From the NCBI GenBank assembly GCA_028284945.1, contig JANQQJ010000024.1, forward strand, positions 186,001 through 250,000: a stretch of 64,000 bases of DNA. Reading direction: 5' to 3'. Both the position numbers and the translations under genes were made by a program. The notes under the pieces were generated by a model that was not told the origin of the DNA, searched no databases, and saw only the letters and a list, made by a program, of their open reading frames with translations. Shown one piece after another: positions 2,382 to 6,768 of the stretch. Each line of letters opens with the position of its first letter. The stretch's first letter is position 1. The stretch is from Alphaproteobacteria bacterium. Lineage in GTDB: Bacteria; Pseudomonadota; Alphaproteobacteria; SMXS01.

Positions 2382-2534
2382 CTAGCCCCGCCGTCTTGAT
2401 CGGCGCTTCAGGCCGATACTCGCCGGCACAGCGAGACTGGTGAGCGCCATGTGTTTAGATATCTTTCCATTTGGTTTGGTATCGGTACAAATTGGCGGCT
2501 CAAGCAGTTTTTTCCTATCGAGTTCTAAGCGCAT
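2382..2534 (-). CDS. Candidate second RiPP precursor-like small ORF
   Basis: A 50-codon ORF beginning MRLELDRKKLLEPP, with TDTKPNGKIS at residues 17-26 and a basic end (KRRSRRRG). Its ATG follows GAGAAG at 6-base spacing. It lies divergently from the first ATP-grasp gene, with 90 bases between starts, mirroring the repeat peptide at 4626-4862 (107 bases from the second ATP-grasp gene). Both start M-x-(L/I)-E-L-(D/N) and both contain a K-P-x-G element. These parallels suggest a decayed or single-core relative, but the similarity is short. A plus-strand ORF (2440-2628) overlaps the same bases and ends in an ATGA overlap with the ATP-grasp start, so the coding strand is not certain. Confidence 0.35.
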   Translation of the reverse strand: MRLELDRKKLLEPPICTDTKPNGKISKHMALTSLAVPASIGLKRRSRRRG

Positions 2535-2624
2535 AATAGCTTCTCATGCTTTGGTGGCCTCACCACCCCTGGCGGACAGGGGCACGCGAACAACGCCAAA
2601 CAATGCAAACGCGAAAGCCGGTCC

Positions 2625-3590
2625 ATGATCGTCCTCGTTACGACCCACAGCTGCAGAGGAACGCACAAGGCCGTCGAACGATGGGACGGCACCCCCCGAT
2701 TTAAACGCAGGACCTATTGGTCCATGTTCCACAGCCGAACTGTTCCTCATGCGACTTATGTTTTGACCGATTTCGATCGCATGGGACCTTGGGAGCTTGA
2801 GCTCGCCTCCCATCTGTTTCGCACGCTCAAGGCCGCCGGGCTGAAAGTCCTGAATGATCCAGCAAAGTTCAAACCTCGCCACGCGCTACTTAAGCACCTG
2901 GAACGCGAGGGTTTTAACAGCTTCACATGCTGGAGCCCTGCCCATGGCGGTATGCCTGACCGGTTTCCGGTTTTTTTGCGCACCCAGGCCGCGCATCGCG
3001 GCCCCCTATCAGAGCTACTGCACTCGCCGTCCGACGCCGCAGCGTGCCTCGATCAGGCATTGCAGGCCGGCCATGCGCTGAACGACCTGCTCTTCGTCGA
3101 ATATGCCGCCGAACCAATCCATGAAGGCCTGTTCGCCAAACAAGCCGCATTTCGTATCGGGGACTCAGTCACACCCGGACTGACGGTTTTCTCAGGGTCC
3201 TGGGCAGGGAAGATCAACGAGGACGAAAGGAACCTTTCATCCTTTTATGAACAGGAACGAAAACAGGCAGACACGTATCCCTTTGCCGACCAGGTCATGC
3301 AGATCTTCCAATCAGCAGACATAGACTACGGACGGATCGACTTCGGGATTCACGGCGGCCGGCTGGAAACTTATGAGATCAATACAAACCCCTGGATGGG
3401 CCGCATGACCCCCAAATCCGAAGCCGCGCGGCCCGAAGTCAAGAAGGCCGTGCGAAAACTCTATATTGAAGCGCTCCACACCATCGATTCACCGGCAAGC
3501 AGCAGGCGCGTTTCCCTCGACAGTGAAGTGCTTCAGCGACAACGGCACCGTGATCACAAATGGCTGTGGACCCGGCGCTGGACGCCGTAA
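2625..3590 (+). CDS. ATP-grasp-fold protein, paralogue 1 of candidate RiPP locus
   Basis: A 321-residue protein with ATP-grasp-like features in order: TYVLTDFDRMGPWELELA (about 44-61), VLNDP (75-79), an R-x-x-LLKHL stretch, FPVFLRTQAAHRGPLSELL (114-132), FRIGD (176-180), and the acid/Asn block YGRIDFGI (235-242) plus ETYEINTNPWMG (248-259). In ATP-grasp enzymes the late Asp, Glu and Asn residues bind magnesium and ATP. Such enzymes join a carboxylate to an amine, hydroxyl or thiol through an acyl phosphate. The substrate is not evident. A second copy at 4970-5935 has exactly the same length. The gene converges on the HExxH gene with only 6 bases between stops. The ribosome site is weak. Confidence 0.78.
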   Translation: MIVLVTTHSCRGTHKAVERWDGTPRFKRRTYWSMFHSRTVPHATYVLTDFDRMGPWELELASHLFRTLKAAGLKVLNDPAKFKPRHALLKHLEREGFNSFTCWSPAHGGMPDRFPVFLRTQAAHRGPLSELLHSPSDAAACLDQALQAGHALNDLLFVEYAAEPIHEGLFAKQAAFRIGDSVTPGLTVFSGSWAGKINEDERNLSSFYEQERKQADTYPFADQVMQIFQSADIDYGRIDFGIHGGRLETYEINTNPWMGRMTPKSEAARPEVKKAVRKLYIEALHTIDSPASSRRVSLDSEVLQRQRHRDHKWLWTRRWTP

Positions 3591-3596
3591 CAGGAC

Positions 3597-4574
3597 CTAA
3601 GCCTCACCCATATAAGCCTTTGCATTGTCCATCAATGCGCGCCCCGTATCGGTCAGACGCGCATGATCCTCGACGATTTTGAGCCCATCAAAAAAATTGA
3701 AACGGTCGCGGTCCGCATAAACCTCCGCCATCTCGCGCAAATCGGTGTCGATATTCCGAGTTTTGGCAAGATGGGTCATCGCCCAGTGCATCCGCGCTGA
3801 AACGAAAGTCGCGTGGTAGACTCCATCCATCGGCCGCGGGTCCTGACGCAATGGCGACGCGAACAGCTCACTATCGTCATTCAATACCAACGGCTCGTCA
3901 TAGGTGAACCCGAACAGCAGGGTATGCGCGCCCTCATGGGCCAGGGTTTCGACAATATCGACCGGCGTGCGGCTGAACTTGGGGTTTAGAACGACAAGGC
4001 CCCATAACTGATAGATCGAAGCGCCATCAAATGGGCTGTTCACGTCGGGTCCGTTGGTGGCGAAGACAATCTGCCGGATTAGGGTATTTACTTCATCGGC
4101 AAGCTTGGGCGCAGCCCGGTTGAGCAGGGCAAGACCGTCGCCAAGCCGGCCGACAAAATCCGCGACCATCTGCTCTGGCGGGTCAATGTATTCATCGTCA
4201 GTATTGGCGCCAATGCGGCGGCGGAACATGTCTGCGTCGCCCCTGACCAGCGGGTCAGCGATACTGGTAATGGTGCGTGTGCCGTCAAACGGCACGAGCC
4301 CGGCAAATGCGGTTGATGCCCGGACCGCCGAATCCTCATCATCGGCGACCAGGGCGAACGCCAACTCATAATAGCGGCCGAAAGCAGCCGGCGGGAACTT
4401 CTGGCCTGACCGCAGCGCCCGCGCCACAGCCATGACCGAGGCGTGATCGAAACCGGCCAGGTCTGCCGTCTGTTCGCAAATATGTTCAAGGCTTTCCGCC
4501 AACCCCGCATGCATGCGCGCGTTCAGCCGGGCGGCACGTTCAGCATCGGGCGCGAAATCAAAAAAATCAGCCAT
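3597..4574 (-). CDS. HExxH-motif protein, candidate 2-oxoglutarate-dependent peptide beta-hydroxylase
   Basis: A 325-residue soluble protein. The key block is ETLAHEGAHTLLFGF, with HEGAH at residues 213-217, followed by SELFASPLRQDPRPMDGVYH (235-254). The pairing of HExxH with a downstream SPxRxDxRPxxGxxH stretch is what I recognise from the RiPP-associated HExxH family, some members of which hydroxylate peptide side chains using iron and 2-oxoglutarate. By analogy His213, His217 and His254 would bind metal and the arginines at 243 and 247 the co-substrate; this is inference. The repeat-bearing peptide gene lies 51 bases upstream on the same strand, so the two are probably co-transcribed. A plain zinc protease is the main alternative. 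Confidence 0.72.
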   Translation of the reverse strand: MADFFDFAPDAERAARLNARMHAGLAESLEHICEQTADLAGFDHASVMAVARALRSGQKFPPAAFGRYYELAFALVADDEDSAVRASTAFAGLVPFDGTRTITSIADPLVRGDADMFRRRIGANTDDEYIDPPEQMVADFVGRLGDGLALLNRAAPKLADEVNTLIRQIVFATNGPDVNSPFDGASIYQLWGLVVLNPKFSRTPVDIVETLAHEGAHTLLFGFTYDEPLVLNDDSELFASPLRQDPRPMDGVYHATFVSARMHWAMTHLAKTRNIDTDLREMAEVYADRDRFNFFDGLKIVEDHARLTDTGRALMDNAKAYMGEA

Positions 4575-4625
4575 AAGCGGGATAGCGTCTTGCAGAGAAA
4601 CCCGGACTACGGCTGCCAGGTTTGG

Positions 4626-4862
4626 TTAGTCGGAGCCTGTAATGCCGTTTTGTTTGCCGACTTTCGCACCCAGGACAGGAGTGATTTCTTTGAATCGCGA
4701 CGGTCCATTCGGCTTGCCTTCTTTGAGAGAAAGAACAGCACCAGAGTGGTCAAACCGCACGGGACCAATCGGTTTACCTTCTTTAAGGGACAGACTCGAC
4801 TGCCCCTGTGCCGTCAACAGGCGTAACCCCAACATTCTGTCCGCATTCAACTCAATCGCCAT
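4626..4862 (-). CDS. Candidate RiPP precursor peptide with three 20-residue repeats
   Basis: A 78-residue peptide: a leader of about 23 residues (MAIELNADRMLGLRLLTAQG...) and three tandem units beginning at Leu24, Leu44 and Leu64. Units 1 and 2 share LSLKEGKPxGPxRF (x = Ile/Val and Asn/Ser); unit 3 is degenerate (LGAKVGKQNGITGSD) and reaches the stop. Each unit offers Ser, Lys and one Glu that an ATP-grasp ligase could link. The ATG follows GAGGGG with 6-base spacing. The gene lies just upstream of the HExxH gene and divergent from the second ATP-grasp gene. A plus-strand ORF (4642-4887) covers the same bases and also has an SD, and wobble positions coincide, so codon analysis alone cannot exclude it. 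Leader-then-repeats order, the operon position and the relative at 2382 favour this strand. Confidence 0.62.
   Translation of the reverse strand: MAIELNADRMLGLRLLTAQGQSSLSLKEGKPIGPVRFDHSGAVLSLKEGKPNGPSRFKEITPVLGAKVGKQNGITGSD
4629..4793 (-). repeat. Three tandem 60-base units inside the peptide gene
   Basis: Units start at 4793, 4733 and 4673 (reading leftward) with a constant 60-base period. In the 14-codon conserved part of units 1 and 2, 12 amino acids are identical and 9 of those 12 codons differ only in the third base (for example CTG/CTT, TCC/TCT, GGT/GGC, AAA/AAG, CGG/CGA). The protein unit is therefore conserved while the DNA has drifted, which points to an old duplication kept by selection rather than a fresh slippage repeat. 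The third unit is shorter and more diverged. Confidence 0.85.
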
Positions 4863-4969
4863 GGAAAACCCCTCTATTAGCCGTTAGCGTGACCTGGACT
4901 ATAGCCAACGGCTACCCAGCCAACAACTGGTACGAAGTCGTGAGCGCTGCACATCGGGGGACTCCGCGC

Positions 4970-5935
4970 TTGATCACCATCGTTTCAACCCATGCCACGC
5001 GCGGGACGCACAAGCCGGCGAAACAATTCCCCGGCATACCTAAATTTACCCAACGCACTTATTGGAGCTTGTTTCGGCGGCGCAGCATACCGGGCGGCAC
5101 GTATATCCTGACCGATTTCGACAGGCTGGGTCCCTGGGAATTAGAGCTTGCAGCCCATTTCTATCAGTCGATCAAGGCCGCAGGTGCGGCAGTGTTGAAT
5201 GACCCCGGGCGCTTTCTCTCACGCCACACGATGTTGGAACATTTACGGCGACAGGGCCTCAATAGTTTTCGGGCATGGAGCCCGGTTCTGGGCGAATTTC
5301 CGGACCGTTTCCCGGTTTTCCTGCGCACCCAGGCAGCACATCGCGGCCCAAAGTCTGACCTGCTGACGGATGAAGCCGAGGCACGCGCCGCCCTCGATGC
5401 CGCTGTCGCAGAGGGCCATCCGCTTGCCGATCTTATCTTCATTGAGTACTGCGCTGCCCCGGAAGAAAACGATATTTTCATCAAATATTCTGCCTATCGG
5501 ATCGGTGACGCCATTGTGCCGTCGATTTCGACCATGAGCCTGGGCTGGGTGGCCAAGATCGGTGACCGCGCCTGTGGAAAACAGGACCAGTATGATCAGG
5601 ACTACGCCCGCATTGAGGACTACCCCTATACGGATCAGGTGATGGCCATCTTTGAGGCTGTCGGTCTGGAGTATGGGCGCATCGATTTCGGGATCGTGGA
5701 GGGCAATATCGAAACCTATGAGATCAATACGAATCCCTGGATGGGCATGCCGTCGGAACACCCGATCCCGATCCGGATCAAGGCGACAGAACTGGTCCGG
5801 AAAAAATATGCCGACGCCATGCGCCAGCTCGATGCGATGCCGGCGGGCGAGCGCATCCGGTTGGATCGCCCCATTTTCAAGGATCAACGGGCCCATGACG
5901 GGCGTCGGCTTTTCCTGACCCGCTGGACACCCTAA
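4970..5935 (+). CDS. ATP-grasp-fold protein, paralogue 2 of candidate RiPP locus
   Basis: A 321-residue protein from a TTG start. The open frame extends further upstream, but the TTG aligns exactly with the ATG of paralogue 1 (LITIVSTHATRGTHK versus MIVLVTTHSCRGTHK), gives the same length, and has a GGGGGA ribosome site 8 bases before it. Shared blocks are TYILTDFDRLGPWELELAAH, VLNDPGRF, FPVFLRTQAAHRGP, YRIGD, GLEYGRIDFGI and ETYEINTNPWMG, and both end in TRWTP or RRWTP. It probably catalyses an ATP-dependent ligation on the neighbouring peptide; that link is inferred from position only. The peptide gene is divergent from it, so a shared promoter region lies between 4863 and 4969. Its stop is 2 bases from that of the LLM oxidoreductase. 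Confidence 0.78.
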   Translation: MITIVSTHATRGTHKPAKQFPGIPKFTQRTYWSLFRRRSIPGGTYILTDFDRLGPWELELAAHFYQSIKAAGAAVLNDPGRFLSRHTMLEHLRRQGLNSFRAWSPVLGEFPDRFPVFLRTQAAHRGPKSDLLTDEAEARAALDAAVAEGHPLADLIFIEYCAAPEENDIFIKYSAYRIGDAIVPSISTMSLGWVAKIGDRACGKQDQYDQDYARIEDYPYTDQVMAIFEAVGLEYGRIDFGIVEGNIETYEINTNPWMGMPSEHPIPIRIKATELVRKKYADAMRQLDAMPAGERIRLDRPIFKDQRAHDGRRLFLTRWTP

Positions 5936-5937
5936 CG

Positions 5938-6768
5938 CTACACCGGAAGATCAGCGACAGCCTGTCGCATCCGGGGAATATGGTCTTCAACGCTGAGCCC
6001 GCCGCTCAGCGTGCGCAGGCACAGATGGGTCAATCCGATATCGTGCCAACCTTTGACCCGGTCTTGCCATTCCGCCTCCCGCGGGCCGACGACGGCGACA
6101 CCAGCCTCTGTCCCGATCAGCCCCGGATCACGGCCCACGGCTTCTGCTTCGCGGTGGATATCCGCTTGAATGGCTGGAAACGCCTCGGGTGTCGCCAATA
6201 CGAACCAGCCATCGGCTTTTTGTCCGATACGTCGGCGTACATTTGCCGCCGGATCCGGCGCCGGACCAATCCAGACCGGGATCGGTTGTTGAATCGGCAG
6301 GGGGTCAAGCCCCGCGCCCGAAACTGTGTCCCAACGCCCCTCAAACGCCACGGCTTCTTTCGTCCACAACAGCTTCAGCAGATCAAGTTGTTCGTCGCAG
6401 CGCGCGCCGCGTGTGCCGAAGTCCTGTCCCTGGGCGGTGTATGAGTCCTCACTTCCCCCCACGCCGACACCCATGCGCACGCGGCCACCGCTCAAATGAT
6501 CCAGTGTCGCCATTTGTTTGGCGACCAGCACGGTCGGCCGGGCCGGCAGTACAATGACGGAAGGGACCAGTTCGATTTTCTCGGTCACCGCCGCGATATA
6601 GGAGAGCATCATCAACGGTTCATGTAATGGGCCGCTATCCGGGCGAATGACCAGGTCGGGCACTCTAAGATGGGTCAGCCCAAGCTCTTCCGCTGCCTGG
6701 GCAAAATCCCGGATCGCCGTGAGGTCGTTACCCATTTCCCGAACCGGCAATGAAATCCCGATACGCAC
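5938..6768 (-). CDS. LLM-class flavin-dependent oxidoreductase
   Basis: A luciferase-like monooxygenase family protein. It begins RIGISLPV and has FAQAAEELGLTHLRVPDLV, the core VAKQMATLDHLSGGRVRMGVGVG, and PIPVWIGP with a following ADGWFVLATPEAFPA. These mark the TIM-barrel LLM family using FMN or F420; the substrate is unknown. I prefer the GTG start at 6768 because GGGGAG lies 7 bases before it and the family usually starts M-R-I-G; an ATG at 6783 is the alternative (281 residues). It converges on the second ATP-grasp gene with 2 bases between stops. Whether it belongs to that locus is open. Confidence 0.85.
   Translation of the reverse strand: MRIGISLPVREMGNDLTAIRDFAQAAEELGLTHLRVPDLVIRPDSGPLHEPLMMLSYIAAVTEKIELVPSVIVLPARPTVLVAKQMATLDHLSGGRVRMGVGVGGSEDSYTAQGQDFGTRGARCDEQLDLLKLLWTKEAVAFEGRWDTVSGAGLDPLPIQQPIPVWIGPAPDPAANVRRRIGQKADGWFVLATPEAFPAIQADIHREAEAVGRDPGLIGTEAGVAVVGPREAEWQDRVKGWHDIGLTHLCLRTLSGGLSVEDHIPRMRQAVADLPV

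Follow-up and report, generated by a model that had tools for sequence, protein, structure and literature searches.

The window, a stretch of 64,000 nucleotides (G000:C35:186001-250000 of a 3.56-Mb genome), contained four genes spanning 3.3 kb that formed a co-inherited, RiPP-type cassette of leader/core architecture: a repeat-bearing precursor peptide, a predicted aKG-HExxH peptide oxygenase, and two paralogous ATP-grasp ligases (A and B). The cassette appears to represent a natural modified peptide class that is as yet undescribed. We propose, with a probability of about 0.58, that the oxygenase hydroxylates at the repeats of the peptide and that ATP-grasp links the lysines of these repeats, through an amide (or ester) bond, most likely to an external acid.

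All four genes claimed in a first-pass annotation of this DNA were present. The peptide gene (4626..4862; 78 aa, with an SD-like GAGGGG ahead of the ATG) and the HExxH gene (3597..4574; 325 aa) formed a minus-strand pair with a gap of 51 bp, and plus-strand ATP-grasp genes lay on both sides of this pair: B (4970..5935), divergent from the peptide gene, and A (2625..3590; 321 aa), which converges on the HExxH gene, 6 bp separating the two stops. The start of A had been placed at 2382, but a gene from this position includes a spurious ORF, and the actual start was 2625. The identical length claimed for the two ligases, which shared 49% identity, held (both 321 aa) provided that B begins at TTG 4970; GTG codons at 4940 and 4808 are alternative starts. 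The divergent intergenic region between the precursor and ATP-grasp B (4863..4969) is presumed to be a shared promoter region, and this layout was kept in related loci. The neighbors of the window cassette were a DUF4166 gene with a saccharopine-dehydrogenase-like gene close behind (window:553-2340), apparently an unrelated operon, and an F420/LLM oxidoreductase. No transporter or peptidase genes were seen adjoining the cassette, in agreement with the earlier description that none is linked to it. A defense or phage origin was rejected, the four proteins being without any PHROG or PADLOC match.

The window peptide consisted of a leader (MAIELNADRMLGLRLL; 4815..4862, minus strand), as delimited by an alignment of 19 precursors, and three units beginning at residues 24, 44, and 64: LSLKEGKPIGPVRFDHSGAV (4734..4793), LSLKEGKPNGPSRFKEITPV (4674..4733), and LGAKVGKQNGITGSD (4629..4673), all on the minus strand. 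Three 20-residue units had been described previously; their number and the 20-residue period were found again, while the third unit was degenerate. The best 14-residue self-match of the peptide was 12/14, a value reached in 0/2000 shuffles. Units 1 and 2 were identical at 13/15 residues, and since 9 of these 13 differed in synonymous codon, the repeat is maintained by selection on the protein.

In total, 19 adjacent precursors (39-79 aa) were found in 12 genomes. They shared the leader motif L[DN]xx[KR][LM][LM]G[FYL][RKW][LIV] (LDxxKLLGFRL-type), in which the G was present in 19/19 and the D after L in 16/19, and their cores were built of [LI]GxKxGxK units; a short ORF with a conserved leader and a variable core was located beside the modifying enzymes across genomes. 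Some selection bias is possible because the precursors were initially chosen by the leader motif or the LGxKxG motif. All of the motif-picked precursors carried both parts, and the same search yielded no ORFs with both motifs in the cassette-free loci L052-L055 and L062-L064. There was no meaningful match to a known precursor family in an NCBIfam search with the precursor. A profile search of the window genome revealed two further, unlinked precursors (three in all in this genome, and 21 in the whole set), whereas a motif pattern search of the same genome remained at noise level. The first (MTKSGLDVSKLLGLRIVADELADTSAIVGAKTGKIDRLSAKTGKIDRIGLKAGKISRIGRKESQTKVA; G000:C1:5479-5685, L085:5479-5685, plus strand; E 3e-6) contained three KxGK units (AKTGK, AKTGK, and LKAGK). 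The weaker third candidate of this genome (MNDVKMDPRRLIGLRIAAEKQSPMQAAALAAKSGVIKCRAEPMTDGHKTWDKD; G000:C12, L086 about 6541-6702, plus strand) gave an E of 8e-5, and the large ORF directly upstream of it resembles a TonB-dependent receptor, as judged by appearance without a Pfam comparison. The spacing in the two clear precursors of the window genome was K-x-G-K, in contrast to K-x-G-x-K in the other precursors, and this divergence counts against the proposed pathway.

The 21 precursors contained 62 K-x-G units, with Lys at +4 in 68% and Gly at -2 in 73%, and Asp/Glu exceeded 15% at no offset from -6 to +10. This composition bears on the main rival explanation, a divergent graspetide: within the repeats, ATP-grasp would form lactams from lysine to Asp/Glu (or to the C-terminus), and these would be hydroxylated by the oxygenase, as in corallotide, whose five repeats each have a Lys-Asp isopeptide on which a 2OG enzyme subsequently installs a hydroxyl group (PMC13097080). 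This precedent makes a graspetide-like version plausible in chemical terms, and 39/62 units had an acid within -6 to +8. On the other hand, the remaining 23/62 had none in this range, the L007 core contained zero acidic residues, the acid was conserved at no offset, and no graspetide synthetase model in NCBIfam matched either paralogue at E<=1; we consider this explanation unlikely. The ATP-grasps may make macrocycles, as suggested earlier, but lysine ligation would be at least as likely because the cores have no conserved acidic partner.

No Pfam or NCBIfam model reached its cut-off with ATP-grasp A or B, and the RimK/LysX models of both collections gave no match to either paralogue at E<=1. 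A profile search with ATP-grasp led to D-Ala-D-Ala ligases, aligned at the GRxD...ExNxxP metal site; D239, E251, and N253 were invariant in 24 sequences, so that the metal-binding D...E.N motif was present. Among the best 50 matches listed, the closest folds to the AF2 model of B (pLDDT 90.7) were RimK (Z 17.1), LysX (16.4), and ArgX (16.3), followed by Ddl (14.5), while MdnB/MdnC and PsnB were not among these 50, an absence that proves nothing. The predicted fold and the D...E.N motif place the ligases in the ATP-grasp superfamily, and paralogue A probably shares the RimK/LysX-like fold, as judged from the model of B.

RimK, LysX, and ArgX ligate amino acids to protein carboxylates. A similar action on a carboxylate of the peptide, either as a C-terminal extension or with the peptide as a metabolite carrier protein, would agree with these enzymes being the closest solved folds among the matches listed. 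However, the substrate is not fixed by fold rank among ATP-grasps, precursor C-termini were not conserved across the alignment, and the conserved element was lysine-glycine, which offers no carboxylate, making this explanation distinctly improbable.

The HExxH protein scored 112.2 bits against TIGR04267 (aKG-HExxH-type peptide beta-hydroxylase domain; curated cut-off of 40), and was the sole member of this type in the window genome. Both HEGAH and SPLRQDPRPMDGVYH, reported earlier for this protein, were present. Its AF2 model (pLDDT 90.1, pTM 0.89) matched the HExxH domain of ChlB with Z 26.4 (3.5 A over 304 residues) and SjiH with Z 23.6, the third-best solved protein giving 8.0 and the rest no higher; a Foldseek search with the model gave an E of 6e-11. 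The HExxH and SPxRxDxRPxxGxxHA motifs were common to the window protein and ChlH, and the protein had both the fold and the motifs of ChlB. Based on the TIGR04267 score, the fold match to ChlB and SjiH, and the motifs shared with ChlH, the protein is very probably an aKG/Fe oxygenase rather than a protease, consistent with the peptide-hydroxylase family to which it had been assigned. In the HExxH tree, the window protein formed a long branch, a divergence that also counts against the proposed pathway. Source excerpts describe hydroxylation by aKG-HExxH relatives at Asp, His, Gln, Asn, and Pro, and leaderless proteolysis by the relative PflC (excerpts of PMC12636437).

In another explanation, alpha-hydroxylation of the conserved glycines by the oxygenase would lead to backbone cleavage, giving short amidated fragments per repeat. 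PosC prefers small residues (Ala, Gly) for alpha-hydroxylation and cleavage according to the same excerpts (PMC12636437), and glycine was frequent at -2 of the units and, at +2, is part of the motif. Nevertheless, cleavage by PosC/PflC is described there as directed by an ARMD motif with sites towards the C-terminus favored (PMC12636437), and ATP-grasp would have no clear role; we regard glycine cleavage as quite improbable.

The cassette was found repeatedly in unrelated genomes. The same divergent layout, with the peptide and HExxH genes on one strand and ATP-grasp on the other, occurred in 11 further loci. Scanning GTDB r220 yielded five loci, three of them with the divergent plan (a Rhizobacter MAG, Hydrogenophaga sp. 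NFH-34, and a gammaproteobacterial MAG), and whole-genome searches added G188, G351, G377, G511, G592, G602, G638, and G671. In all related loci, a small ORF with the leader motif lay between the ATP-grasp and HExxH genes. G592 had two precursors. In G511 (L031:5236-6467 and L051:6712-6888), six precursors were in tandem, and a different contig carried one more next to a further HExxH gene; no ATP-grasp lay beside this second HExxH/precursor pair. The G511 genome also had two tandem ATP-grasps, and altogether two HExxH genes and seven precursors.

Genome surveys also linked the two enzymes. Among 248 genomes that each represented a different genus of a single family (Rhodobacteraceae, as judged from gene order), a high-scoring HExxH protein (>415 bits) and a high-scoring ATP-grasp (>320 bits) were found in exactly the same seven genomes, and in 385 genomes of the class of the window organism, both enzymes reached a high score in the window genome only. 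ATP-grasp was detected in 0/59 near relatives of the window organism. HExxH and ATP-grasp tree distances showed a moderate correlation (Mantel r 0.47, permutation p 0.009), partly reflecting shared organismal history. G799 had distant relatives of both enzymes at two sites separated by 190 kb, neither of which had an adjoining matching peptide, and was rejected as a member of the cassette family.

In the ATP-grasp tree, 15 sequences formed one clade (support 100/100) apart from nine standalone homologues (L016:4229-5275, L017:5911-7044, L025-L028, L030, L014, and L009), beside which no cassette was seen. A plasmid search gave distant standalone ATP-grasps only, and on a Paracoccus plasmid, one of these lay within a polysaccharide biosynthesis locus. 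According to this tree, the A/B pair of the window and the a/b pair of G511 arose by two independent duplications. A peptide was present in the locus of 14/15 clade ATP-grasps; the exception, L008 (KLAP22), was also the only one without HExxH, and counts against the proposed pathway. No HExxH protein was found in the L008 genome, a weak empty answer since this is a MAG. The L008 ATP-grasp (L008:5920-6858) adjoins murA, which is also a neighbor of the L034 cassette, and is possibly a decayed cassette. Cassettes were located among housekeeping genes, those of L032 and L033 near spoT, DUF2062, pdxJ, acpS, or lepB, and that of L034 beside murA. No leader peptidase or exporter was linked in the flanks of the loci inspected (an ABC transporter was near L034 only), and no gene beyond the precursor, HExxH, and ATP-grasp genes was seen to recur across all loci.

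The neighborhood comparison proposed earlier was carried out: a short repeat peptide accompanied each of the subfamily HExxH genes (13/13), which supports the original reading of a RiPP-type locus whose substrate is the peptide. That the peptide is instead a small structural or regulatory protein beside unrelated enzymes would fit the lack of a linked transporter or protease, but is very hard to reconcile with the conserved leader against a variable repeat core, the tandem precursors, and the adjacent precursor at every one of these oxygenase genes. The original interpretation of the locus as a whole was partly supported.

In the proposed pathway, the N-terminal leader would present the repeated [LI]GxKxG(x)K core to two maturases, whose catalysis on the precursor peptide is highly likely. 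The aKG/Fe(II) HExxH oxygenase would hydroxylate residues in or next to the repeats; hydroxylation of the peptide is very likely. The RimK/LysX-like ATP-grasp would link the lysines of the repeats through an amide (or ester) bond. Since the conserved core residues are lysine and glycine, the nucleophile is most plausibly lysine, and the core composition and the predicted fold favor it to some extent as the ligation site. A small carboxylic acid or amino acid would most likely be joined to the lysine side-chain amine, as opposed to the side-chain lactam formed by graspetide synthetases; given the lack of a conserved carboxylate partner, the simplest reading is an external acid, although we give it, as against an intramolecular link, slightly less than even odds. 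The two ATP-grasp paralogues and the three precursors of the window genome suggest that the paralogues may share divided or ordered work over these precursors. Because no further gene recurred across loci, leader removal and any export would depend on genes elsewhere, or the product may stay in the cell, as the lack of a linked exporter also suggests.

A more specific and tentative version is that ATP-grasp loads the repeated lysines with free amino acids or small acids, before or after hydroxylation by the HExxH enzyme, yielding a hydroxylated, branched poly-isopeptide of an undescribed RiPP class. EF-P carries a lysylated and hydroxylated lysine and is loosely analogous, the modification here being on a dedicated repeat peptide. 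If ATP-grasp charges lysines rather than closing macrocycles, this would be a new reaction in RiPP chemistry and might provide a leader-guided tool for site-specific lysine ligation. The cassette is a small, easily expressed three-gene pathway defined by comparative evidence, with an ATP-grasp family outside the curated models, and its precursor signature (LDxxKLLGFRL leader and GxKxGxK core) is usable for genome mining.

Both enzyme superfamilies are already known in RiPPs, and the locus is of the RiPP type by architecture. The claim that no named class has this exact gene set held within the literature searched (subscription titles lay outside the search): the enzyme pairing, the ATP-grasp family, and the precursor family were not reported there, no paper combined ATP-grasp, HExxH, genome mining, and lysine or contained the LLGFRL motif, and HExxH was not mentioned in a phylogenomic survey of graspetides. 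ChlH, BipH/BpmH, PflC/PosC, and the pes enzyme belong to the same oxygenase family by sequence and fold, but in excerpts of the sources, their clusters pair the oxygenase with radical SAM, MNIO, nitroreductase, or asparagine-synthetase-like enzymes, and these excerpts make no mention of ATP-grasp (PMC12636437, PMC12707348, PMC13060819). RimK, LysX, and ArgX resembled the cassette ATP-grasp in fold (Z 16-17), with about 12-15% identity, but the known members take ribosomal protein S6 or the carrier LysW as substrate, and not a leader-bearing repeat peptide. Graspetides (microviridin, plesiocin, and others) similarly have ATP-grasp next to a precursor of leader/core type, in some cases with more than one core; the cassette differed in having no conserved Asp/Glu acceptor pattern and no match to a curated synthetase model, and by these sequence features would not be a standard graspetide, the lack of conserved acidic residues in the cores suggesting that ATP-grasp probably acts on lysines. 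Corallotide (graspetide group 15) shares with the cassette a repeat precursor, ATP-grasp together with a 2OG/Fe(II) oxygenase, and lysine-centered repeats, but has an ATP-grasp of TIGR04187, an oxygenase of PF13640, and KxxxD repeats (PMC13097080), whereas the cassette has an ATP-grasp without a model, an HExxH-type oxygenase, repeats with no conserved acid, and a different leader.
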